Assembly (NCBI RefSeq): GCF_014078525.1
Contig: NZ_MU078694.1
Location: forward strand, 248,001 to 312,000
DNA from: Nitrosopumilus sp. b3
GTDB taxonomy: Archaea; Thermoproteota; Nitrososphaeria; Nitrososphaerales; Nitrosopumilaceae
Direction of reading: 5' to 3'
Length of the DNA: 64,000 bases
The position numbers and the translations under genes were made by a program. Shown here in pieces: positions 4,632-16,113 of the stretch (positions within the stretch are counted from its first letter, which is position 1; the number at the start of each line of letters is the position of its first letter). The notes beneath the pieces were generated by a model. It had not been told where the DNA came from. It made no database searches and was given only the letters and a program-made list of their open reading frames with translations.

Positions 4632-4747
4632 GTTTTACATCTAAAAATTATCAAATTAATGCTTTCTAACTTGTCAATTTTATCACATTAGTTACATGAT
4701 GTTGTTATGATCAACAGATTAATCAAATTAGGACTAAAGAGTATGTT

Positions 4748-5152
4748 TTAGGGTTCATCATGCGTAGTTACAGAATGACAATTAGGACATAATCCTTGAC
4801 AATTCCATATTGAATTATTACTTCTATGGCCATCTTTATGATGATATTCCCATCTAGGTGGAACATCACCACATTTTGCACATTTACCATTTTGTCTTCT
4901 TCGTACTTGTCGCTTTTCTTGTTCATTCCAACCACGTCTTTTTCCACTATAACCTCTTTTTTTAATTCTAAATTTGGCAATCCCCATCAACGCAAACACC
5001 ATTACGATTAGTAGGATGGCAGAAGGGTGAGTTTTTGTATTTTCTAATTCTTCAAGATATCCCATAATTGCAATAAGTGGAAGCATAACGCCTGCAACGA
5101 TAATGAATAAGAGTATTCTGGGATTTTTTTTAAATTTAGGTGGAAGTTTCAT
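4748..5152 (-). CDS. HNH endonuclease-like protein with two N-terminal membrane helices
   Basis: 134 aa. Residues about 11-33 and 42-62 are hydrophobic helices; a basic linker follows, then an HNH fold from residue 77: C91-x2-C94, catalytic-type H104-H105-K-D-G, a downstream Asn, and L-C122-P-N-C125-H. The zinc Cys pairs and the HH motif are intact, so nuclease activity is plausible. The membrane anchor is unusual and would hold the nuclease at the cytoplasmic membrane, where it could meet incoming DNA; that role is inference. It sits just outside, or at the edge of, the putative integrated element. Confidence 0.8.
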   Translation of the reverse strand: MKLPPKFKKNPRILLFIIVAGVMLPLIAIMGYLEELENTKTHPSAILLIVMVFALMGIAKFRIKKRGYSGKRRGWNEQEKRQVRRRQNGKCAKCGDVPPRWEYHHKDGHRSNNSIWNCQGLCPNCHSVTTHDEP

Positions 5153-5191
5153 TCAGATACAATTTTTTGTATTATGTATGGACTTAAGCAT

Positions 5192-5578
5192 TTAGAATTT
5201 ATTTTCAGGATTGTAAAAATGAAAAAGATATTCTACCCATCCTATAAAATTATCAAAATGATCTTTTGTTAGCATAGGTTTATCAATTTTTTTGGCTATT
5301 ATGTTGGTAATATGAAACAAGTCGATCTGTGCCATATTTCTATTAGATGCTATCACGCATGCAGTAATCATAAAAATTTCTGCCAATGTAGTGTCACCAC
5401 ATTCTTCTCTAATTGTTTTGGCCAATTTCTCATCATGAAGTGATTTAATGCCTTTCAGAACTCTCCTAGTGAGAATAAATTGATCATCTGTTCCTCTTTT
5501 CATCAAATCAAACGTTATCATCTTCTCAACATAGTCAGTATATTCACTACGAGAAAGTTCAATGGTATTTTTTATCAT
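5192..5578 (-). CDS. Hypothetical protein in ATPase operon (128 aa)
   Basis: Helical soluble protein without a recognised motif. Its ATG overlaps the stop of the 37-aa zinc-finger gene as ATGA, which itself overlaps the P-loop ATPase stop, so the three are translated from one message. Function unknown; probably works with the ATPase. Confidence 0.65.
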   Translation of the reverse strand: MIKNTIELSRSEYTDYVEKMITFDLMKRGTDDQFILTRRVLKGIKSLHDEKLAKTIREECGDTTLAEIFMITACVIASNRNMAQIDLFHITNIIAKKIDKPMLTKDHFDNFIGWVEYLFHFYNPENKF

Positions 5579-5688
5579 TGGATATCCCCTTGTCGTAACA
5601 TTTGTCCATGTCTTTTTTGGATATGCTCTTGAATTACTTCGATATGAAACGAAGCCCTAGGACAGTATGGACATTTATGATAATTCAT
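5575..5688 (-). CDS. C2H2 zinc-finger microprotein (37 aa)
   Basis: Reads MNYHKCPYCPRASFHIEVIQ... with C6-x2-C9 and an H-x4-H pair (H22, H27), the spacing of a single C2H2 finger; single-finger proteins of this type are common in archaeal viruses and plasmids. The start overlaps the upstream ATPase stop (TGATG) and its stop overlaps the downstream start (ATGA), strong support for its being a real gene. Likely DNA-binding. Confidence 0.7.
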   Translation of the reverse strand: MNYHKCPYCPRASFHIEVIQEHIQKRHGQMLRQGDIQ

Positions 5689-6770
5689 CAATTTGATATT
5701 CCCTCGTTAAAGTTTGGCTGTTTGCATGGCAAAAGAATGGTTCTTTGTTCTTTTAATCCGTATTTTTCTGCAAGTTCTTCGAGATTGATGTGTTTTGCAT
5801 CAAAGTATTGTTCAATGTATCTTTCGGCCTGTTGTACTCTTTTTGGTTGAGTGTTGATTCCCTGTCGTAATAATTTTAATTCTATTGCACGTTTGCAAAT
5901 TCCTTTTCCAAATCTCTTTGAAAAATCATATACAAAGTGCTCAAGATTCATTTTAGTTTCTTCTGTCTTTTCAGCCGGATTACATACTTGACAAAGTTTG
6001 TCTTTAAGAATCCATGAAACTTGTGGAGATACAACAAAACGTGTTGTGATTCCATTGTTGTATAACAAAACTCTGAATGGTTCACCATCCTTGTAAGTAA
6101 AGTAATCCCCCCTATTTCCCAATGGAAAAGAAAACTTGTGATACATTCTTGATTGTGCTCTTAGTCTTGCAAATTGATTTATTTTTTGTTGTTGATTCTT
6201 CCCAAGTAATTCTTCCAAATATCTGATTTCTTCTTTTTGGCAATCTGTGTAAAATGTAAAGTTTGAAATTCGTATGAATTTGTCTAGAACTTTCTGTGCA
6301 TGAAAGTTCAAAATCATAATTATTTTTCTGTCTTCGTTGGTTTTACCAATGTGTCTAACTGTTGTAATTTCTGCTTTTAGTCTGTCAAGTGCTGTTTTTC
6401 CAAATTTTGAAACTAATCCACTAAGATCATCAAATACCAATATCTGATTAGATTTTGAGAGTTTTTGGATTGTCGCTGTAAAATCTATCAAGTCCTTATC
6501 CTCAAAAAAATGAACTTCAAAGGTAGGATCTAGAGTATGTAATTGATGAGCCAAAACACCGGCAAGTGTAGATTTTCCAGAACTTGAAGCACCAATCAAA
6601 TTAATTTTCAAAAAACCCATGCTTTTGCTTGATTCGTGAATCTCATTGACACATGCATTGATTGATTGTGATCTTATCATCTCGGCATCTTGCCATTTTA
6701 TAACAACCGGCTTGCCTGTTTTGCTGACTCTGGATTCTTTTCTTTTGATCTGTCTAGTGATTACAGGCAT
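5688..6770 (-). CDS. P-loop ATPase of the integrated element
   Basis: 360 aa. Walker A G60-A-S-S-S-G-K-S-T68 and Walker B I-L-V-F-D-D-L-S (about residues 110-117) are intact; a C-x2-C pair (LCQVCN) sits in the C-terminal third, followed by a helical, possibly winged-helix tail. The spacing of Walker A to B and the following RHIG...MILNFHAQ segment suggest a RecA/AAA-type motor, such as a DNA-packaging, partition or transfer ATPase, but I cannot assign a family. Starts 3 nt after the stop of the zinc-ribbon gene at 6774 and leads the zinc-finger and 128-aa genes. Confidence 0.7.
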   Translation of the reverse strand: MPVITRQIKRKESRVSKTGKPVVIKWQDAEMIRSQSINACVNEIHESSKSMGFLKINLIGASSSGKSTLAGVLAHQLHTLDPTFEVHFFEDKDLIDFTATIQKLSKSNQILVFDDLSGLVSKFGKTALDRLKAEITTVRHIGKTNEDRKIIMILNFHAQKVLDKFIRISNFTFYTDCQKEEIRYLEELLGKNQQQKINQFARLRAQSRMYHKFSFPLGNRGDYFTYKDGEPFRVLLYNNGITTRFVVSPQVSWILKDKLCQVCNPAEKTEETKMNLEHFVYDFSKRFGKGICKRAIELKLLRQGINTQPKRVQQAERYIEQYFDAKHINLEELAEKYGLKEQRTILLPCKQPNFNEGISN

Positions 6771-6773
6771 TTT

Positions 6774-7373
6774 CTAGGAATTTCTATTCTCCTTGAATCC
6801 TAGATCTGCCATGTCTTCACCGTTTTGTGCAATATACTCAATTCTGTAAAGTGCTAATGCGTGTTGTAATTCCTCTAAAAAGTTGTAAAACCATTTATCG
6901 AATTTTGATGAAAAGTTGAGCCTATCTCCTAAACCGATTGAATGTGTTGGACATTCTGGAACAACTCGCCTGTAATATGGTGATTCTAGTTTATCTTTGA
7001 TTATGTTGGTTCTCTGTTGTGATACCCATTTTTCACATTCTGGACATCTCCATTTGTTCGTTGTTTTTTGTTTTGAAATAATTGAATCTGTTGGAGATAA
7101 CAATATCTGACAAACTTGAATATTTGATACTGCTGTTTCTTTCTTACAGAATCCACATTCATAGAATATGTTTTCTTCTGTTTGTTTGTTGTATGCTTCT
7201 GTATCTACTGATACGATGTAATCTTCTGTTAATAATGCATTGATGTTATGAAGTCCAGAAGTTGCACCGTTGTAATCTTTATCTTTTAAACAATTTACCG
7301 CGTATGAACGCCAAAATGTAAAACCCGAAGAAATATCTGGAAGATAACCTGATTTTCCCAAACTACAACACAC
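6774..7373 (-). CDS. Zinc-ribbon protein of unknown function (199 aa)
   Basis: Contains two CxxC knuckles about 45 residues apart (CGFCKKE and RCPECEKW), which together fit one zinc site, then an amphipathic helical C-terminus. Start is a GTG at 7373 inside the motif AAACGGGGTGT; the first residues (MCCSLGKSGYL) are uncertain and a later start is possible. First gene of the ATPase operon. Function unknown. Confidence 0.6.
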   Translation of the reverse strand: MCCSLGKSGYLPDISSGFTFWRSYAVNCLKDKDYNGATSGLHNINALLTEDYIVSVDTEAYNKQTEENIFYECGFCKKETAVSNIQVCQILLSPTDSIISKQKTTNKWRCPECEKWVSQQRTNIIKDKLESPYYRRVVPECPTHSIGLGDRLNFSSKFDKWFYNFLEELQHALALYRIEYIAQNGEDMADLGFKENRNS

Positions 7374-7622
7374 CCCGTTTATGGCGTTTCTTACAATTAC
7401 CTAGTATAGGAATATCCATACGAAATGTATTGAAATCGATATAGATAAGACGGGTACTTACTCATAAAAATAATTATTTTTTTATTTTATTGGATAACTG
7501 TTTGTGCCTAATTCATGCAAATTAGTCAATGCTAATTTGATATGCTGTTACTTATGAAAAAACTTTGAATTAATTGTTTTATTGTCATAAACAAAAGAAA
7601 AAGAGTGTGATTTAGCCTATTA
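7374..7622. other. Intergenic region, no gene seen
   Basis: About 250 nt of AT-rich DNA upstream of the ATPase operon. It should contain that operon's promoter. I see no convincing reading frame or strong hairpin. Confidence 0.4.
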
Positions 7623-7934
7623 TTATGCCAATAGTACCGGTTCTTTCTTTAGATGTTTGGTAAAAGCATCTACTTCTTGGGATGTTGTTTTAGGCTTTGT
7701 TGTTTTTCTATAACCTAGTGCACATTGTATGCAGATAAAACCATCAAGAGATGATTTACTAACAGAATAACATACAGAAACACCATTCCATTTACTATGA
7801 GTTAATGGTATGTCGCATCTGTCACATCTAGCATTTGATTTACTACCTTTGTGAACTATTCCGATAAAACCTCGTTTTCTCATTGGTTTGAAAAGAAGTT
7901 GTAATTTTTTAAAACGGGTTATCGTTAGGATCAA
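7623..7934 (-). CDS. Zinc-binding protein (103 aa)
   Basis: Has CDRCDIPLTH and a later F-I-C-I-Q-C-A pair, giving a four-Cys zinc site, with a basic N-terminus. Sits directly beside the iteron-like array, reading away from it, so it is a candidate array-binding (replication or copy-control) protein; that is inference from position and charge only. No known family recognised. Confidence 0.55.
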   Translation of the reverse strand: MILTITRFKKLQLLFKPMRKRGFIGIVHKGSKSNARCDRCDIPLTHSKWNGVSVCYSVSKSSLDGFICIQCALGYRKTTKPKTTSQEVDAFTKHLKKEPVLLA

Positions 7935-8010
7935 ATGAACCTAACGGATGATGGTTAATTTCTAAATAATGGAAATCAGATCAGACATTTTTAAAATCTC
8001 ATTAAAGATT

Positions 8011-8262
8011 TGACAACATCAAATGCCATTTGACAACATCAAATTAATTTCAATGTTGTCAATTTTCTAGGCGTGGGCTAGGCGTGGTGACAACATGACA
8101 ACATTGACAACCCATATTTGATGAGAAATTCACACAACCTATTTTTTTCCAAAAAACTTTTCATAAAAATGATGTTGTCATGCTTGTCAATGTTGTCATT
8201 AAATACTCTAGGCATAAAATACTGACAACATCAATTTTCATTTCTTGTTGTCAATGTTGTCA
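8011..8262. repeat. Iteron-like array of TGACAACAT repeats in both orientations
   Basis: Within 250 nt of gene-free DNA the 9-mer TGACAACAT or its complement ATGTTGTCA occurs at 8011, 8031, 8053, 8088, 8096, 8172, 8190, 8223 and 8254, with further partial copies (TGACAAC at 8105, TTGTCA at 8184, TTGTTGTCA ending 8252). Two tandem copies of CTAGGCGTGG start at 8067 and 8078, with CTAGGC again at 8208, and an A-tract follows at 8263. Clustered short repeats next to a replication ATPase gene are typical of plasmid or viral origins; an operator array is the main alternative. Confidence 0.75.
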
Positions 8263-8318
8263 AAAAAAAAATAAAAATGTCTGATTTGTAGTATATAAAA
8301 GAAATATGCTAGTTTTTG

Positions 8319-8585
8319 TTATTTCTCGTTATTTTCCAAAATTTGTGATAGTTTGACATAATTTTCATAATCATCAAACGCATCTTGAAAAGTTGTTACT
8401 GCATCATTACAAGCATTGCATTTGATTGTCAAATACCATTCAATATCATATCTTACATCAGTTGATGGGAAATCATAATCATCTTTTACATCTCTTGCCA
8501 AGTCACCATATCTTGTTTGTTCATCTATGAACTGCACCAACCATTGCTTGAATGACTTAACATTACTGTATCTATTCAAACCCAT
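8319..8585 (-). CDS. Hypothetical protein at end of replication operon (88 aa)
   Basis: Starts at ATG 8585, inside the end of the 643-aa ATPase gene (14-nt overlap); a TTG one codon earlier is less likely. Acidic and rich in aromatic residues (DDYDFPSTDVRYDIEWYL) with a C-x2-C. No known domain. The overlap supports cotranslation with the replication protein; the iteron-like array lies just downstream. Confidence 0.6.
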   Translation of the reverse strand: MGLNRYSNVKSFKQWLVQFIDEQTRYGDLARDVKDDYDFPSTDVRYDIEWYLTIKCNACNDAVTTFQDAFDDYENYVKLSQILENNEK

Positions 8586-10503
8586 CAAGACCTACATCAG
8601 AAATTGGTGTTATTGTCACTATCTTAGATCCTCTTGTAAAATCACCATCTCTTTTATCATATCTACTAACTGTTATTTCAAAACCAAATCCTCTAAGCAA
8701 TGGTGTTAGTTGTTTCATTTGTTTACCCAATTCTTTGACATTCTCAGGTAATCCACTATTCTTTTTGATATTACCATGTTCATCTAAACATAGATCATTA
8801 AACATCAAGGTAAGGCTTGTTTGTTTTACTTGTATGACAGGTTTCTTATTTTCATCAAGTTTACAGTTTTTTCTCATCATATCTAACAATAATGGGATTA
8901 GGGGATATTCTTCATTCAGGTTTAGGTTACTATCATCAATCTTTTCCCAATATCGATTAATGAATTTATTATCTTGATTTCCTAAAGCCCTTGAGATTGA
9001 TTCACCCCAAATAGCAAATGTGGCCATTCTCGGTAATGATGAACCATCTAATTCTTTTTCGACTTTATCAACTATTCCCATTGCCTTTTGAATTGTACTG
9101 AATATAAAACCAAGTAGATCAGGTCTTAACTCATCAATTTTTCTACTAAATTTTTCATCTGTCATTCTTTCAGTTTTTTCAATTTTTGGTAATTCATAGA
9201 AGATTGAACGCTCAAGTAAATCAGGTTGATTGATACTTGGATCAATTCCATTTAGGATAATCTTAGACATCAAAGTAAGACTAAATTCATCTGCATTTGT
9301 GTAATGTTTTCTTTTAGGATAGAGCGTACCTGTTACTACTCTACATAGAAATTGTGAAATCTCTTTTGTGAAATTATCAGTATTATCAAAGTTTGACAAA
9401 TCACGTTTTGATAATGCTACTGCCAAATCATCAATCTTTTCAGGTAATGATAAGGCATTTTCACCCTCTGGATCAACAATACTTTTGATTGCACCAGATA
9501 CAGAAGTTTTGGCACTTCCTTGTTCCCCATGTAAAACCTGTATCGGTATTGGAAAACCCTTTAAAAAAAATGCAATAAGATGTGAAACAAATACAATTTT
9601 ATCTTGTTCTTGAATCCTACATAATTTAACAAAATCATCCAATACATTTTGATTGTCAAATGTTGGTTCTTGCTGCATGCTTTGAATAGTTTTGGCACTT
9701 GGTGACTTTAGAAATATTGGTGAACCGTCATCATCATTTTGGGTTTTAGTGATTTCATTTTTTGAAACCCTGTACACATCACCGTTTTGATTTTGTAAAT
9801 CATAATACAAACAATCATCAACAAATGCACTTCTACTAAAAACAGGTTTTGTTTTTGTACCATTCAATAACGCATAAGCATGTAAGTTTGTAATTCCTGC
9901 TTTGTATGTACTTTCTGCATAGATTTCTTCATAGATGTTTTGTGTTTTTACTCTAATCAGTTGTTGAAAGGTAGGTGAAAAAATATCAATCCAATGTGGC
10001 TTTTCATTTAATTCTACTTTGATAACTATTTGTTCAGTATCGTTTTCTGATTTTACCTGTTTTCTGATCAGAGTTTTTCCAACATTGAATACTTTGACAG
10101 TTGATGGTATTTTCTCGTCTTTATCTTTATCAAGTTTGATGATAGGTGATTCGTTTAATGTCTGTGGTTTTTCAAATACGCCTGAAAACCTATCATGATT
10201 TACTATTGTAAATTTAATTCGATTTTCATGAACTAACCCATCAACAGATGAACCAATACTAACTTGTAATACTTCTTTGATTGCCCTGTACAGATTTCTA
10301 TGTACATTATCTTTTCTATAAACTGAAAATATTTTTTTGAGTTCATCATTGAAATCATTGTAATCAATCTCAACAGGTGTATCACTTGCCCTAATACCAT
10401 CTATCAAAACTACATATTTGTACACATTATCCACTTTGAATGAATTGAAAAAGTCTTTGAATAAATCACATATTCTACTTTCTGTATGATCACCTGATTT
10501 CAT
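8572..10503 (-). CDS. Replication-type P-loop ATPase/helicase of the integrated element
   Basis: 643 aa. Walker A G326-E-Q-G-S-A-K-T-S334 is followed by a Walker B-like stretch (LSNFDNTDN, about 369-377), a polar sensor strand (MSKIILNGID) and an arginine motif (PDLLERSIFYELP). The order closely resembles phage/plasmid ATPases found with primases (D5/DUF927-like, helicase superfamily 3-type AAA+). The first 300 residues have no recognised motif and may hold a primase or origin-binding part. It belongs to a minus-strand operon with zinc fingers and an RHH regulator, next to the iteron-like array, so initiation/unwinding of element replication is the likely role. Confidence 0.75.
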   Translation of the reverse strand: MKSGDHTESRICDLFKDFFNSFKVDNVYKYVVLIDGIRASDTPVEIDYNDFNDELKKIFSVYRKDNVHRNLYRAIKEVLQVSIGSSVDGLVHENRIKFTIVNHDRFSGVFEKPQTLNESPIIKLDKDKDEKIPSTVKVFNVGKTLIRKQVKSENDTEQIVIKVELNEKPHWIDIFSPTFQQLIRVKTQNIYEEIYAESTYKAGITNLHAYALLNGTKTKPVFSRSAFVDDCLYYDLQNQNGDVYRVSKNEITKTQNDDDGSPIFLKSPSAKTIQSMQQEPTFDNQNVLDDFVKLCRIQEQDKIVFVSHLIAFFLKGFPIPIQVLHGEQGSAKTSVSGAIKSIVDPEGENALSLPEKIDDLAVALSKRDLSNFDNTDNFTKEISQFLCRVVTGTLYPKRKHYTNADEFSLTLMSKIILNGIDPSINQPDLLERSIFYELPKIEKTERMTDEKFSRKIDELRPDLLGFIFSTIQKAMGIVDKVEKELDGSSLPRMATFAIWGESISRALGNQDNKFINRYWEKIDDSNLNLNEEYPLIPLLLDMMRKNCKLDENKKPVIQVKQTSLTLMFNDLCLDEHGNIKKNSGLPENVKELGKQMKQLTPLLRGFGFEITVSRYDKRDGDFTRGSKIVTITPISDVGLDGFE

Positions 10504-10505
10504 TT

Positions 10506-10850
10506 TTATAATTCATCACCTTGTGATTTTTTCCAAAATTCAGTATGTTTGAGCCATTCCACAAAATCTCTATGAAATCTTGATTCTGATACATCAATTA
10601 CTTCTAATTTGAATCCGTTATGCTCTAGAAATTCAGGTAGTTTTGGACATTCAGCATAATGTACAAACTCAAAATATTTTGTTTTATCTTTCTTAGAACC
10701 TTCAAATTCAGTAAGATGTAACAATACACCATTTGACCATATAACGAAATGTTCTTCTAAATTTAAGAATAGTTTTGTAAAGTTCTCTTTTGAAAGATTT
10801 GCAATTTCTCTAATGATAAAATGATTGTATGGTTTGAAAATAAATTTCAT
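10506..10850 (-). CDS. Hypothetical protein, paralogue of chromosomal gene at 1323-1673
   Basis: 114 aa sharing the N-terminal FKPY...IRE, central LE...W-S-NGVLLHLTEFE and C-terminal RDFVEWLKHTEFW motifs with the 116-aa protein at 1323. Its ATG overlaps the preceding stop as ATGA and its stop lies 2 nt before the replication ATPase start, so it is an operon member. Function unknown. Confidence 0.7.
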   Translation of the reverse strand: MKFIFKPYNHFIIREIANLSKENFTKLFLNLEEHFVIWSNGVLLHLTEFEGSKKDKTKYFEFVHYAECPKLPEFLEHNGFKLEVIDVSESRFHRDFVEWLKHTEFWKKSQGDEL

Positions 10851-11098
10851 TCTTTATTTCTCATTAAATTTTGAAGTAACTTTTCTTGAACGTCAATAAA
10901 GCATAAATCGGTAAACATATTGTAAATTGTCCATTTTGAAAACAGGTTCAAGTTTGGCACAATATAATATAACTGTAAAATTTCAATTAGTTTTTCTTTT
11001 TGTTTTTTCTTTACGTGAATATATGCTTCACTTCGTGAAACATTACGTTCTATTACTTCACTTTTCCAACAATTAGGATCAAGACATCTGAATGGCAA
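10847..11098 (-). CDS. Small Cys-containing protein (83 aa)
   Basis: Starts at TTG 11098 (MPFRCLDPNCWKSEVIER...), 1 nt after the preceding stop. One CxxxxC near the N-terminus; the rest is helical and basic. No family recognised. Coding status is supported by the closely packed operon. Confidence 0.55.
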   Translation of the reverse strand: MPFRCLDPNCWKSEVIERNVSRSEAYIHVKKKQKEKLIEILQLYYIVPNLNLFSKWTIYNMFTDLCFIDVQEKLLQNLMRNKE

Positions 11099-11099
11099 A

Positions 11100-11261
11100 T
11101 TAATCTAACACCTCTTCTATTTTCAAAATGTTTTTTCTAAATACTTCATCACAGTTGTAATGAAAATCACAGATTAACAATTCCTGTTTTTGTTGGTTTC
11201 CTGCATCATATACGATTGAAAATTTTGAAGGTTGATTACAACACTTACGTAAATCTGCCAT
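11100..11261 (-). CDS. Small Cys/His protein (53 aa)
   Basis: Reads MADLRKCCNQPSKFSIVYD... with C7-C8 and a C-D-F-H-Y-N-C cluster (residues 31-37), suggesting a zinc site. The ATG overlaps the upstream stop as TAATG. Very short but held in place by overlaps on the 5' side and a 1-nt gap on the 3' side. Confidence 0.6.
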   Translation of the reverse strand: MADLRKCCNQPSKFSIVYDAGNQQKQELLICDFHYNCDEVFRKNILKIEEVLD

Positions 11262-11473
11262 TAACAATCATCTCCTAACAAAGATTTTTGATTGTGGTTG
11301 TAACAAATGTGATTATAAAGACTCCAAAGATGACGAAATCCTTTTGGCCTTCCCGAATTGGAACAGAAGGGGCAAGTAAATTTTTTACCTGTTTCTGGAA
11401 TTTTCAAATATACTGCATCATTAGGAGTATGCTTGTTTTGCACCCGTCTTTTAAAATCAGGATTCCTAAGCAT
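11261..11473 (-). CDS. C2H2-type zinc-finger protein (70 aa)
   Basis: Basic N-terminus, then FTCPFCSNSG...LWSLYNHICYNH: a C-x2-C pair and an H-x4-H pair, the pattern of a C2H2 finger. Overlaps the RHH gene by 8 nt at its start and the next gene by 1 nt at its stop. Likely DNA-binding. Confidence 0.65.
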   Translation of the reverse strand: MLRNPDFKRRVQNKHTPNDAVYLKIPETGKKFTCPFCSNSGRPKGFRHLWSLYNHICYNHNQKSLLGDDC

Positions 11474-11663
11474 TGTTAGAACCTCTCTTAATTCGGGTGG
11501 TTGTGGGATTCTTTCCTTTTGGGTGGGAAAATCCCTCTCCTTTTTTATCTAAAAATTCTAATACACATTCTTCGATAAAGCGTGAAACTGTAATCAGACG
11601 ACGGTTTTTTTCTATTGATTCAAGTGTCTGTATGTCTAATGAAATTGAGATATTTTGTCGCAT
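11466..11663 (-). CDS. Ribbon-helix-helix transcription regulator (CopG/Arc type)
   Basis: 65 aa. N-terminal strand RQNISISLDIQTLESIE followed by two helices (VSRFIEECVLEFLDK) matches the RHH fold; the C-terminal tail is basic. First gene of the replication operon, leaderless by TATA spacing. RHH proteins in this position usually repress their own operon; the symmetric promoter at 11664-11715 would be its natural target. Confidence 0.75.
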   Translation of the reverse strand: MRQNISISLDIQTLESIEKNRRLITVSRFIEECVLEFLDKKGEGFSHPKGKNPTTTRIKRGSNNA

Positions 11664-11715
11664 AATACGTTATATTACAACTTAATATATAGGGAAAGTG
11701 TAGTAAATATTAAGA
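11664..11715. promoter_or_regulatory. Bidirectional leaderless promoter with one shared TATATA box
   Basis: The 52-nt gap between divergent start codons has a single strong TATA element, CTTAATATATAG (TATATA at 11686-11691). It is palindromic and lies about 26 nt from the minus-strand ATG and about 27 nt from the plus-strand ATG, the right distance for leaderless transcription both ways. No separate second box is evident. Confidence 0.6.
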
Positions 11716-12786
11716 ATGCCTATACATTACTGGGATGGTAAAACACCAGAATTACAATTCAAAATTTTGGATCTATTGATTACAACCGGATATGTTTCTA
11801 GACCAATGATTTTAAAAAATGGGATTAGTCAAAACAAGGCCGATATTCACAATGCTATCAAATCATTGATTGGTTATGGAATTATTCAAGAATACAATAG
11901 AAAGTTCAAGAAAGAAAAAAAGAGTGGAATACAAGAAACATTCTACATTTTTACAGATGAGGGAATTTACACAGTAATTGGAAAAGGTGATGATAATGAT
12001 ATAAAAATTCCAATAATATGTGATAATGAAAATTTATCAATAGAAAATTTTTGGAAACTAGTGCTTTTTTATTTCAATAAAGAAAACAAAATCAAAACAA
12101 CATTATCCTTTGAATCTGTATTGAGCAAATACATAGAAGTTTTGGGAATTGATAAAAAATTAATTTTATATGATTTAACTGATGATTGGGATACGCCTTT
12201 TTTAGTATGGTATAATGAAGTAGGAGATTCAAGTCCGGAAGATTGTAAAAACTTTCTTGAAAACCATAAGAAACTATTTTCAAAAATAAAATGGAATAGT
12301 CTATCAAAAGATTTTGATAAAAATAGATTGTGTAGTTGTTTAACTAATGCTATTGAGGGATTTATAGGACAATATGAAACCGAAACATATGCTGGCGAAT
12401 ATCAATTAATTAGAATTTTAAATGATCTAAAATCATTAGAAAAAAGACATCATGAAAAATATTACAAATTGTATAACATAGGAAAAGAAATAGATGAAAA
12501 TATCAATATCAAACAAATTAAGCATGGATTAAATAAAGAATTTTTCATCATAAATGAGATTGAAAATTATGAATTTAATTCTGATATAAATAATATAGAA
12601 GAAAATTATGCAGATTATGTTTCATTTTTATTTTATGTAGAATTAATAATATCATTTCAAAATTATGAATGGAGTAAGTTCTTTGAACGAACAAATCTTA
12701 CAGAATGGTTTGAATTGTGGAAGAACAAAATACTTGATTATAGGCGTGAATCAGTAAAAGAAATAGAGAGTATTTTAACAATTTAG
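11716..12786 (+). CDS. Winged-helix-like protein of unknown function (356 aa)
   Basis: Residues about 10-95 look like a winged helix (LQFKILDLLITTGYVSRPMI, helix, then a TFYIFTDEGIYTVIG wing). The remaining 260 residues are helical, rich in Asn, Lys and Glu, with no recognised motif. Base composition is visibly more AT-rich than its neighbours. It shares its TATA box with the replication operon. It could be a regulator or part of the cargo; no enzyme motif was seen. Confidence 0.6.
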   Translation: MPIHYWDGKTPELQFKILDLLITTGYVSRPMILKNGISQNKADIHNAIKSLIGYGIIQEYNRKFKKEKKSGIQETFYIFTDEGIYTVIGKGDDNDIKIPIICDNENLSIENFWKLVLFYFNKENKIKTTLSFESVLSKYIEVLGIDKKLILYDLTDDWDTPFLVWYNEVGDSSPEDCKNFLENHKKLFSKIKWNSLSKDFDKNRLCSCLTNAIEGFIGQYETETYAGEYQLIRILNDLKSLEKRHHEKYYKLYNIGKEIDENINIKQIKHGLNKEFFIINEIENYEFNSDINNIEENYADYVSFLFYVELIISFQNYEWSKFFERTNLTEWFELWKNKILDYRRESVKEIESILTI

Positions 12787-12795
12787 ATTACATAT

Positions 12796-12819
12796 CGATA
12801 GGATCAATCGATCCTATCG
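12796..12819. terminator. Perfect 10-bp inverted repeat between convergent genes
   Basis: CGATAGGATC, 4-nt loop, GATCCTATCG, located 10 nt after one stop and about 37 nt from the other. Position and symmetry suit a bidirectional terminator, although no long T-run follows. It could also be a protein-binding site. Confidence 0.5.
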
Positions 12820-12855
12820 GTTAAAATCTGGTAATATGGGCATGAATATACTATT

Positions 12856-13788
12856 TTATTCAAAGAAATCAGTAATTTCAGTTCGTTTGTTTGTAACTAC
12901 CTTTAACCCACCATCGATCATTTTTGTTTGCACCTGAGTAATTTTTCTTGCAGATTCAACTATATTTCGTGCACCATCACTATTTGTTGCAATAATTATG
13001 TGGTATGCAATCTGGTTCCCAGATTGAAAAACAGGTATATCGTAAACATGTTTCTTGATGGTCTGAATTTTATTTCGATAAATCTTCATTAATTCTTCTC
13101 CTTTTGTAGATTCTTCCCAACTTTCATCTCCATAAAATTCTGTTAATGATTTCCCATAACTATTATCTAATGTACAGTTTGAACGATGTCTAGCAATTAC
13201 ATGAGTCATAAAAGTAAAGATAACATCAGCAGTATCTACATTCAATAATTGTTCCATTAAATTCCATTTGATTTCTCTAAACCCTATAGGATCTACAACT
13301 ACTAAAAATGCGATTCCACGATTGTTCAATTCTTGTATTTTAGTAATAGAATCTGAAAATTCTTTCTTTTCTGCAATAATGGATTTTGATCCTATTGAAT
13401 CAGAAAGTGTTGAAATTCTTTTTGTAAGTGCATTAATTGATTCTTCTTCATCATCAAACAAGAAATATTTTGTAAATGATTTTTCATCTGGTTTGAAAAG
13501 ACTCACTAATGCACTTCCGGGAAAACGTTCATCTTCTAATTCTCGTTCCTTAAATTTGATAATTCCTGAACCACAATGTGTATCTACATAATAAAATTGT
13601 CTAAACCATTTCTTGAAAATAGGAACAAATCCACCAATACAATAATCAATCACAAAAAATTTCTTGATAGACCAAACATCACCCGGTGATGTTTTTAGAC
13701 CATCTTTTTTTATGGTTTCAATTTTAGAAATTAATTTTTCAAGTCTTTCTTTTGCCCATTCATAAGGGTCAAATCCTTTAGAACTCAT
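12856..13788 (-). CDS. tcmP: Three-Cys-motif partner protein TcmP
   Basis: 310 aa. The start SSKGFDPYEWAKERLEKL, a Rossmann-like first motif FYYVDTHCGSGII (about residues 66-77) and a later LVVVDPIGF (about 162-170) match the TcmP family (TIGR04474), whose members are found beside three-Cys-motif (Gp37/Gp68) genes. Here it is divergent from exactly such a gene. The two motifs resemble SAM-methyltransferase motifs I and IV, so a nucleotide- or nucleic-acid-modifying enzyme is likely; the true reaction is unknown to me. Leaderless by TATA spacing (TAATATAATA about 28 nt upstream). Confidence 0.8.
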   Translation of the reverse strand: MSSKGFDPYEWAKERLEKLISKIETIKKDGLKTSPGDVWSIKKFFVIDYCIGGFVPIFKKWFRQFYYVDTHCGSGIIKFKERELEDERFPGSALVSLFKPDEKSFTKYFLFDDEEESINALTKRISTLSDSIGSKSIIAEKKEFSDSITKIQELNNRGIAFLVVVDPIGFREIKWNLMEQLLNVDTADVIFTFMTHVIARHRSNCTLDNSYGKSLTEFYGDESWEESTKGEELMKIYRNKIQTIKKHVYDIPVFQSGNQIAYHIIIATNSDGARNIVESARKITQVQTKMIDGGLKVVTNKRTEITDFFE

Positions 13789-13901
13789 TATTGTTCATAA
13801 TTTAAGATTCTATTATATTAAAGAAATTGTAAAAAAGTTAATCCTTTGTAAACAATTCATTACCTAGGAAGGTTTATGGGTAGCCGTGATAATAAATTGT
13901 A
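13789..13901. promoter_or_regulatory. Divergent promoter region of the TcmP/three-Cys pair
   Basis: 113 nt between the two start codons. A TAATATAATA-like box sits about 28 nt before the TcmP start and GGTTTATGGG about 28 nt before the TTG of the three-Cys gene. Both transcripts would be leaderless. No strong palindrome was found. Confidence 0.45.
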
Positions 13902-14738
13902 TTGTCTAATTCATCTTCAATCGAATGGACAGAAGCAACATGGAATCCTACAACAGGTTGTACAAAAATTTCTACTGGATGTAAAAATTGTTATGCAGAA
14001 AAATTATCAAATCGATTAAACTTAATGGGTGTCAAAAAATACAAAAATAATTTTAAATTTACTGAGCAACCTCAAGATTTAGAACTTCCTTTAACATGGA
14101 AGAAATCAAAAAAAGTCTTTGTCAATAGTATGTCTGATCTTTTTCATGAAGATGCAAGAATGGAATACATAGGTAGTTGTTTTAATGTAATGTTGAAGGG
14201 AAATCATCATGTGTATCAAGTTCTAACAAAACGTCCTGATACTATGAGTGAATTTTCTAAATTCTTTGAAAATTATTTTGGCGATGTTATTCCTTCTCAT
14301 ATTTGGATGGGCACAAGTGTTGAAAATGGAGATTCTAAATGGCGAATAGATGCGTTAAGACAGGTAAGATGTCATACTAGATTTCTAAGTATAGAACCTC
14401 TGTTAGGTTCAATGGGTAAATTAGATTTAACTGATATTGATTGGGTGATTGTTGGTGGTGAGAGTGGTGCTAAGTTTAGACCTGTCAAGAAGGAATGGAT
14501 TGTAGATATTATCAAACAATGTAAAAAACAAAAAGTTGCTGTTTTCTTCAAACAATGGGGTGGATTTAGACCTAAATCTGGTGGCAGAACACTAAATGGT
14601 AGAACTTATGATCAATATCCTAAGATAATAGACGTTGAAAATATTTTGAAAGAAGTTGAATATGATGAAAAAGAATTTGCAAAGTTTTGTCATTTAAAAA
14701 TTAAATCAAAACAAAAATCTCATCTTGTGAATATTTAA
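13902..14738 (+). CDS. Three-Cys-motif protein, phage Gp37/Gp68 (DUF5131) family
   Basis: 278 aa starting at TTG. The hallmark W-N-P-T-T-G-C20-x6-C27-x2-C30-Y-A-E is intact, followed by conserved MSDLFHED, VLTKRP, WMGTSVEN, LSIEPLLG, WVIVGGESG and FFKQWGG blocks. The family is thought to be a radical-SAM-like iron-sulphur protein; the spacing CX6CX2C differs from the classic CX3CX2C. It occurs in phages and mobile elements with TcmP, suggesting a joint modification or defence-related role, not established here. Same element as the integrase downstream. Confidence 0.85.
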   Translation: MSNSSSIEWTEATWNPTTGCTKISTGCKNCYAEKLSNRLNLMGVKKYKNNFKFTEQPQDLELPLTWKKSKKVFVNSMSDLFHEDARMEYIGSCFNVMLKGNHHVYQVLTKRPDTMSEFSKFFENYFGDVIPSHIWMGTSVENGDSKWRIDALRQVRCHTRFLSIEPLLGSMGKLDLTDIDWVIVGGESGAKFRPVKKEWIVDIIKQCKKQKVAVFFKQWGGFRPKSGGRTLNGRTYDQYPKIIDVENILKEVEYDEKEFAKFCHLKIKSKQKSHLVNI

Positions 14739-14855
14739 TCATAAATTCTATTGGATTGTTACTCTATAATCCTTTTACCATTATTTTCCTTAGTATCAAA
14801 TGATGCTAAGGTTTTAGTTGATTTCGAAAATAAAAAATAAAGTTATTGTGCTACT

Positions 14856-15986
14856 TCAATCCTGTTTGACATTTCCAGATTCATTTAGAATATTTGCTCT
14901 GATCATGGCATCTTGCATTTTGGACATCTCTTTTTGCAGATCCTCTATGATTTTGTCTTTCTTCTTTTCTGATTCTAATTGTATTGATTCTACAAATAAC
15001 TCGGATTCTAATTCCTTGTATTTTTTGGCTCTGTCTTCTTCTGATAATCTATAATACTGTTTTAGATAACCACTATGACCATCTAGTGCATTTGCATAAT
15101 CTGAACCATGCTTTTGGCTTGCTTTAGTGTGGAAATATGCTCTAAAGGCATGAATATTTACAATAAACCTAGTGCTGTTTGGATATTTTTCTGTTAATCC
15201 TAGTTTTTCTCTAAGATGAAGAAAGTAGGCTTCTTCTGTATTAATTGCCTGTCTAGGAATTTCTGTGTTTGAAAATACTAGATCATTATCTTGCTTTTTT
15301 TCAAGAATTGACTTTAATTTCTCTAATGCTTCATTTGAGATGTAGGTTTCACGACTTTCTTTAGTCTTGGTAATTTCTGCTTCTAGTGTGATTCTTACAG
15401 GGTTTTCATTTAGATGAAAGTCTTTTTTCCTTAATGCTAGACATTCCCCTATCCTCATACCACTAGAAATTAGTGTATAATACAATGCTTTTCTTGCTGG
15501 ACTAGCATAATTCATGATTTTTTTGACAGTTTTTAGTTCAAGTGGCCTTCTCTGTTCTCGTCTTTGTTTTGGAAATTGAATGTAATCTTTAACATCATCT
15601 GTTGTAATTCTAATTCCATGACATTGTCTTAGATATGACTTCAAAAACGAAAAATAGGTTTTAATCGTCTTAGGACTTTTTTTCTTGAATAGTTTTTGAC
15701 CAATCTTGTTTAGGATTATTTCATCATGATCTTCATTTAGAAATTGTATGAAATTGTCTAAAGACAGGCAAATTCTTCTAATATCAGGCTTATTTTGGTT
15801 GAATAATTCTTGATAGTATTGTATCATTTTGATTTTTGTAGTCTTTTTTGTTGTGCAGAAATACTCAAACATGGTCAAAGAAGTTTTTGCACAAGTTCTA
15901 GTGTTATCTGATTCTGATTTCCTATACATTCTGTCTAGCCAATCTTCATCTTCAAAAACGGATAAACTCATGTCATTTGTGCCCAT
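14856..15986 (-). CDS. Tyrosine recombinase/integrase
   Basis: 376 aa. N-terminal SAM-like DNA-binding domain (about 1-140), catalytic domain with R178 (SSGMRIGE), Lys in the ITKTKESR strand, H279-x2-R282 (NIHAFR), H304 (DGHSG) and Tyr at 311/312 (LKQYYRLS). After the tyrosine comes a coiled coil (about 320-365), an unusual C-terminal extension. All catalytic residues are present, so it is probably active. Sits at the right edge of the accessory block; an undisrupted integrase fits an element that does not split its integrase gene on insertion. Confidence 0.9.
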   Translation of the reverse strand: MGTNDMSLSVFEDEDWLDRMYRKSESDNTRTCAKTSLTMFEYFCTTKKTTKIKMIQYYQELFNQNKPDIRRICLSLDNFIQFLNEDHDEIILNKIGQKLFKKKSPKTIKTYFSFLKSYLRQCHGIRITTDDVKDYIQFPKQRREQRRPLELKTVKKIMNYASPARKALYYTLISSGMRIGECLALRKKDFHLNENPVRITLEAEITKTKESRETYISNEALEKLKSILEKKQDNDLVFSNTEIPRQAINTEEAYFLHLREKLGLTEKYPNSTRFIVNIHAFRAYFHTKASQKHGSDYANALDGHSGYLKQYYRLSEEDRAKKYKELESELFVESIQLESEKKKDKIIEDLQKEMSKMQDAMIRANILNESGNVKQD

Positions 15987-15997
15987 TTTAATTTAAT

Positions 15998-16009
15998 AAA
16001 ACGGGGTGT
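15998..16009. repeat. AAAACGGGGTGT motif near integrase, inverted copy at 7370-7380
   Basis: The G-rich motif stands out in AT-rich DNA. An inverted 11-nt copy (ACACCCCGTTT) lies at 7370-7380, overlapping the start of the ATPase operon. Inverted orientation argues against simple attachment sites; a shared protein-binding site is possible. Confidence 0.3.
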
Positions 16010-16113
16010 TAATATGACAATGTTGGTCAAATGGTGCTTTCTAATTCTAACCTGAGAAAAATATTTGTACTAAAATTTGATTGTGGTTGACTGAAATATT
16101 AAAAAAAATCCAA

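Follow-up and report, generated by a model that had tools for sequence, protein, structure and literature searches.

The window, a stretch of 64,000 nucleotides from Nitrosopumilus sp. b3, harbours two adjacent genes encoding TcmP and DUF5131, the latter being the current name of the Gp37/Gp68 family PF07505 (Table 1). The initial annotation had described a pair of TcmP and a three-cysteine protein here, and both open reading frames were found, intact and divergent, with a gap of 113 bp between them. DUF5131 reaches 299.7 bits against PF07505 (gathering cut-off 28.9; profile positions 2-243 of 243), and TcmP 103.2 bits against TIGR04474 (curated cut-off 53). On these profile scores, both assignments are far above chance. 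The DUF5131 start codon is TTG, which was accepted because homologues keep the N-terminus M(A/S)xxSxIEWT. By inspection, a TATA-like box TTTATGG (13873-13879) precedes DUF5131 and another, TATATT near 13815, precedes TcmP. Both lie approximately 26-28 nt upstream of the respective starts, a spacing compatible with leaderless genes.

Table 1. Features of the TcmP-DUF5131 locus, in positions of the window
Feature	Position	Strand	Evidence or conservation
Integrated mobile element carrying the pair	4660-16034		Same site empty in G051, G013 and G035
attL-like direct repeat TGCTTTCTAA	4660-4669	+	10-bp border repeat
TcmP, 310 aa, class-I SAM-methyltransferase-like partner	12856-13788	-	TIGR04474 2.2e-29; PDC-M41A 1.1e-16
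TcmP motif IV, D166-P-I-G (family DPxG)	13282-13293	-	D 54/54, P 52/54, G 47/54
TcmP motif I, YVDTHCGSG, residues 67-75, predicted SAM-binding loop	13564-13590	-	D69 53/54, G73 54/54, G75 51/54
Divergent intergenic region with a TATA-like box for each gene	13789-13901		Inspection of sequence
DUF5131 (Gp37/Gp68), 278 aa, putative radical-SAM relative	13902-14738	+	PF07505 2e-89; PDC-M41B 1.3e-105
CX6CX2C cysteine triad C20-C27-C30 of DUF5131	13959-13991	+	Conserved 54/54
Tyrosine recombinase / integrase of the element	14856-15986	-	PF00589 6e-13; phrog_1 9.7e-25
attR-like direct repeat TGCTTTCTAA	16035-16044	+	10-bp border repeat

The mobile element around the pair

The pair was expected to lie on a mobile element, and this holds: the flanks of an 11.4 kb segment with an integrase gene at its right border are 71-89% identical to those of the three relatives listed in Table 1, which lack the segment. 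In both size and gene content it is consistent with the 'cryptic integrated elements' described from Thaumarchaeota (PMC6563490); that survey of mobile elements does not mention the TcmP-DUF5131 pair.

In the element, TGACAACAT also occurs nine times, counting both strands, in a stretch of about 250 bp (8003-8262), against 0.8 copies expected in the whole window after shuffling. This cluster adjoins the gene of a 643-aa P-loop protein (8572-10503) and is a probable iteron-type origin of the element. Directly downstream of TcmP is an open reading frame of 356 aa (11716-12786), whose N-terminus looks winged-helix-like. It has no match in Pfam, PHROG or PADLOC, and no counterpart was found at the other pair loci compared.

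In other thaumarchaea, the two genes of the pair form a cassette with different genes on either side, and no further gene of the window element accompanies them. A second pair is present in the window genome outside this element (locus L003, 10520-12538; G000:C6:50642-52231), with a DUF5131 59% and a TcmP 20% identical to those of the window. The second pair and the two-gene cassettes indicate that the pair is mobile by itself and travels as cargo in the window element. The alternative, with the element rather than the pair as the mobile unit, was rejected since no other element gene occurs at the thaumarchaeal pair loci compared.

Relatedness of the two proteins

DUF5131 is a well conserved protein, with a mean column identity of 55% in an alignment of 54 sequences. 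Besides the cysteine triad, the blocks IEWTxATWNP, FVNSMSD, LTKR, GGESG and FKQWGG are kept. The CX6CX2C motif, reported as intact in the initial annotation, is invariant in all 54 homologues, and the canonical CX3CX2C was not found in any of them. A Pfam search with the window protein itself gave no match to the radical SAM family PF04055. Nonetheless, a bridging protein of B. uniformis annotated as 'radical SAM mobile pair A' matches both PF07505 (2.8e-33) and PF04055 (7.5e-8, with a score over the cut-off), and its cysteines are spaced CX3CX2C. Because this protein matches both families, DUF5131 can be placed in the radical-SAM superfamily, in which noncanonical cysteine spacings occur. From its sequence it looks like a radical-SAM relative with a cysteine loop three residues longer.

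The window DUF5131 also matches TIGR04471 (3e-25), the radical SAM mobile pair protein A of Bacteroides plasmids, to which it is homologous. The TIGR04471 protein has CX3CX2C and a second radical-SAM protein as its partner, whereas the partner of DUF5131 is TcmP. Such a 'radical SAM mobile pair A/B' was observed in a Bacteroides plasmid (L120, 2965-4505) as a parallel mobile pair lacking TcmP, where A is related to DUF5131 and has CX3CX2C, and B is a second radical-SAM protein with the motif CTKSDLVLRD.

The AlphaFold model of the window DUF5131 has a pLDDT of 89.6. Spore photoproduct lyase, a radical SAM enzyme reversing a thymine photoproduct, ranked first in Foldseek, as a modest match (E 5e-3, TM 0.45). 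The two proteins have T-G-C-xn-C-xx-C-Y around the cysteines in common, but the spacing is CX3CX2C in the lyase and CX6CX2C in DUF5131. Comparison by hhalign with 30 spore photoproduct lyases (domain model PF20903) gave a probability of 2.7%, with no detectable similarity between these narrow profiles. As this comparison failed, membership of DUF5131 in the lyase family is not claimed. Searches of PDB sequences with the single proteins returned nothing useful; one gave weak matches to the ribosomal protein eS1 (E 0.01 or worse).

TcmP is far more variable. The mean column identity of 54 sequences, all matching TIGR04474, is 16%, and the positions kept are YxDxFAGxG, lysine 43, an acidic residue at 112 (D/E112 in 52 of 54) and DPxG. 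The methyltransferase-like motifs are intact, as had been stated earlier, with G73 and D166 invariant and D69 replaced in a single sequence. The AlphaFold model (pLDDT 92.9) retrieved RlmJ-type methyltransferases (3.6e-7 and 5.8e-7) and Trm1 (2.1e-6) in Foldseek, and a profile search detected RlmJ with an HMM E of 1.8e-5. RlmJ is the 23S rRNA A2030 N6-methyltransferase with a DPPY motif, and Trm1 modifies tRNA. Motif I of RlmJ, YLDTHAGAG, aligns to motif I of TcmP. TcmP is thus predicted from its model to have an RlmJ/Trm1-like class-I SAM-methyltransferase fold. However, the DPPY catalytic motif of RlmJ was not found in the 54 TcmP sequences, where motif IV is mostly DPxG (DPFG in 15, DPYG in 13, DPIG in the window copy); DPFG occurs in Trm1. 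With DPxG and not DPPY as motif IV, any assignment of the atom methylated by TcmP is tentative. Many TcmP proteins also differ from RlmJ in having extra C-terminal parts, including a GMT-wHTH domain in 11 of the 54.

One reading of these relationships, which we consider improbable, is that DUF5131 makes a small molecule, such as a derivative of SAM or of a nucleotide, in the manner of viperin or CmoA, for TcmP to transfer or use. A small, almost invariant DUF5131 would suit a universal small substrate, and TcmP shows weak profile similarity to cmo5U34 methyltransferases. However, this similarity is not significant (E 0.14-0.33), and the enzyme ranking first among the structural matches of DUF5131 acts on DNA.

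Linkage, distribution and exchange of the partner

Loss of the motifs in relatives, or a lack of conserved linkage, had been named as observations that would speak against the pair. The cysteines and methyltransferase motifs are kept among the 54 homologues, and in 64 of 80 scanned loci TcmP adjoins DUF5131, with gene order and orientation varying among the loci. In the remaining 16 no TcmP is present, and in two of these a contig end falls close to DUF5131. Among 100 thaumarchaeal relatives, DUF5131 is over the cut-off in ten and TcmP in seven; all eight TcmP copies, two of them in the window genome, adjoin DUF5131. In 148 genomes from the order of a Streptomyces, TcmP is over the cut-off in nine and adjoins DUF5131 in eight. 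Seven of the nine are intact and adjacent, one is interrupted but adjacent (G115) and one is a lone fragment (G213). DUF5131 lacks a TcmP in five of the 13 full-length copies of these genomes. As every intact TcmP in these two unbiased samples adjoins DUF5131, and DUF5131 is also found alone, TcmP appears to depend on DUF5131 and not vice versa. The initial annotation spoke of an archaeal element, which is true of the window; the pair itself is widespread and also common in bacteria, plasmids and phages. Plasmid copies of the pair have an integrase nearby.

Several incomplete or solitary copies were observed. In another Nitrosopumilus locus (L004, 6001-6834), a DUF5131 83% identical to that of the window is broken into two open reading frames at about residue 56. 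No TcmP lies within 6 kb, and judging by the sequence this DUF5131 is apparently a decaying copy. In the Streptomyces-order genome G115 (C1:6889947-6893037), an interruption of about 1.4 kb divides TcmP, whose DUF5131 neighbour is intact, and the same part of TcmP occurs again elsewhere in the genome (3612828-3613478). Gordonia and Mycobacterium phages possess DUF5131 without TcmP in replication/recombination modules. Four phage DUF5131 proteins in such modules carry loop insertions (L153, 4001-4978; L154, 4001-4975; L122, 4001-4876; L086, 4001-4906). DNA methylase genes are near three of the four, and no TcmP was found at L086 and L122.

Unexpectedly, the two members of the pair have not diverged in step. 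The Spearman correlation of their scores is 0.13 across 66 paired loci. Where two loci have DUF5131 proteins of at least 70% identity (96 locus pairs), TcmP scores below 0.25 of the self score in 63. Between the window and L005, DUF5131 is 82% and TcmP 28% identical, and the nucleotide match is confined to the DUF5131 gene.

The exchange is clearest in temperate Gordonia phages, whose lysogeny locus has the order integrase region, metalloprotease, DUF5131, TcmP and immunity repressor, with other genes intervening in Jablanski. The metalloprotease is 90-99% and DUF5131 92-100% identical among these phages. TcmP, in contrast, comprises four types, which mostly share 18-27% identity with one another; Jablanski and Fairfaxidum are 51% identical, and identity within the other types is 88-100%. 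The edges of the swap are sharp: nucleotide similarity is lost some 22 bp short of the stop codon of DUF5131 and returns where the repressor gene ends. The TcmP type does not track the repressor type, as Bosnia and Easley have repressors 85% identical and TcmP proteins 21% identical. TcmP is directly downstream of the repressor on the same strand and overlaps it in several phages, and is therefore probably expressed in the lysogen.

Sequence comparison thus shows a near-constant DUF5131 beside a TcmP that is repeatedly swapped for very different alleles. Cassette exchange of the variable member in prophages is what one sees for a component facing a changing opponent or target. Because very different TcmPs are tolerated, DUF5131 probably contacts a feature common to all of them, which may be a chemical product, a cofactor or the conserved core. 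That the two do not diverge jointly argues against DUF5131 as a protein-binding antitoxin. A constant enzyme beside a hypervariable gene that is exchanged in cassette form is also the arrangement of restriction-modification systems with exchangeable specificity. These possess an endonuclease, whereas none was found here, where the partner is DUF5131, and the pair is not a member of these systems.

The same pattern bears on a DarTG-style addiction or abortive infection system, a rather unlikely explanation, in which TcmP would be a toxic modifier, DUF5131 its enzymatic antidote, and the solo phage DUF5131 a counter-defence. A constant antidote with a variable effector suits chemical reversal and not binding, and the best structural match of DUF5131 is an enzyme that reverses DNA damage. 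TcmP is never intact without DUF5131, yet DUF5131 is often alone; G115 keeps an intact DUF5131 beside a broken TcmP, and the solo copies of Gordonia and Mycobacterium phages are in replication/recombination modules. However, no toxicity is known, and the divergent or convergent gene orders that are common here differ from those of a typical operonic antitoxin. The solo phage DUF5131 may also have an unrelated role, and we know of no precedent for the removal of an N-methyl group by a radical-SAM enzyme.

Possible roles of the pair

The two window genes, which are adjacent, match the PADLOC defence candidates PDC-M41 and PDC-M30, each made up of a TcmP-like component A and a DUF5131 component B (A 1.1e-16, B 1.3e-105). 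The PDC candidates were derived by 'guilt-by-embedding', and 22 of 32 P. aeruginosa strains with PDC-M30 (68.8%) were phage resistant, which is a correlation only (PMC10855318). No report of antiphage activity of PDC-M41/PDC-M30 was found in the literature searched, and full-text searches gave no biochemical study of TcmP, DUF5131, Gp37/Gp68 or PDC-M41, in agreement with the earlier view that the role of the pair is not settled. The window pair is a full member of both TIGR04474 and PF07505, which are annotated without function, and is an ordinary member of a widespread, already catalogued and uncharacterised family.

The closest two neighbours of the pair at 55 bacterial loci (111 proteins, no control set) are mostly ordinary genes, and the commonest neighbour families reach two to three of the 111 proteins. 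Evidence from defence islands is not claimed, as the immediate chromosomal neighbours are without evident defence enrichment (no matched control set). No shared third gene was seen at the thaumarchaeal or phage pair loci, and no nuclease or recognised effector was found attached to the pair. The points for defence are the position in lysogeny loci, the mobile contexts, the patchiness (10 of 100 relatives) and the PADLOC listing. As a separate observation, a TcmP gene of S. meliloti is near the gene of the phage-defence helicase Hna (SMa2243/SMa2245), and both are upregulated in the nolR+ strain (PMC12445080). Of the suggestion that the pair is a defence or DNA/RNA modification system, nucleic-acid modification is plausible, whereas defence is not backed by the neighbouring genes and is, given PADLOC, not a new idea. 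Partner exchange is the part worth following.

The ordinary neighbours also suit an unlikely alternative, in which the pair modifies tRNA or rRNA to aid the host or the element (stability, translation, protection from RNases or antibiotics) with no role in defence. Among relatives with a solved structure, those nearest to TcmP act on 23S rRNA (RlmJ) or tRNA (Trm1) as modifying enzymes, and some phage DUF5131 proteins are annotated as 'RNA methyltransferase'. However, if the RNA target were fixed, TcmP should tend to be conserved, and it is the variable member. The patchy presence among relatives and the position of TcmP behind a phage repressor also stand against it.

The reading that we favour, tentatively and at somewhat less than even confidence, is that the pair is a mobile two-gene module for nucleic-acid modification used in conflict between genetic elements. 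TcmP would methylate an exocyclic amine, in RNA or DNA, and would set the variable target. DUF5131 would carry out one constant radical reaction on the modification made by TcmP, either by elaboration or by reversal, since an enzyme recognising the TcmP surface would have had to change too. Resident elements would express the pair to exclude competitors. On the sequence evidence, a constant enzyme with a swapped partner fits a system of chemical defence or competition. Against a strict two-step pathway are the DUF5131 genes without TcmP, in 16 of 80 loci and 5 of 13 full-length copies of the Streptomyces-order genomes. A more specific form of this proposal, which we regard as doubtful, is a distinct class of conflict system in which a near-invariant radical-SAM enzyme reverses or elaborates the modifications made by exchangeable TcmPs, is expressed from prophages with the repressor, and has solo phage copies as an antidote. 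The antidote role of the solo copies is a guess.

Partner exchange is the most informative feature of the family, and is not visible from the window sequence alone. The pattern of a constant enzyme and a swapped partner separates the roles of TcmP and DUF5131, and makes the question of their function testable. The Gordonia phages, with a near-identical DUF5131 and four TcmP types, are a natural experiment for both target and chemistry. Viperin is the known radical-SAM example in immunity; should the pair prove to be a defence system, immunity would gain radical-SAM chemistry directed at nucleic acid.
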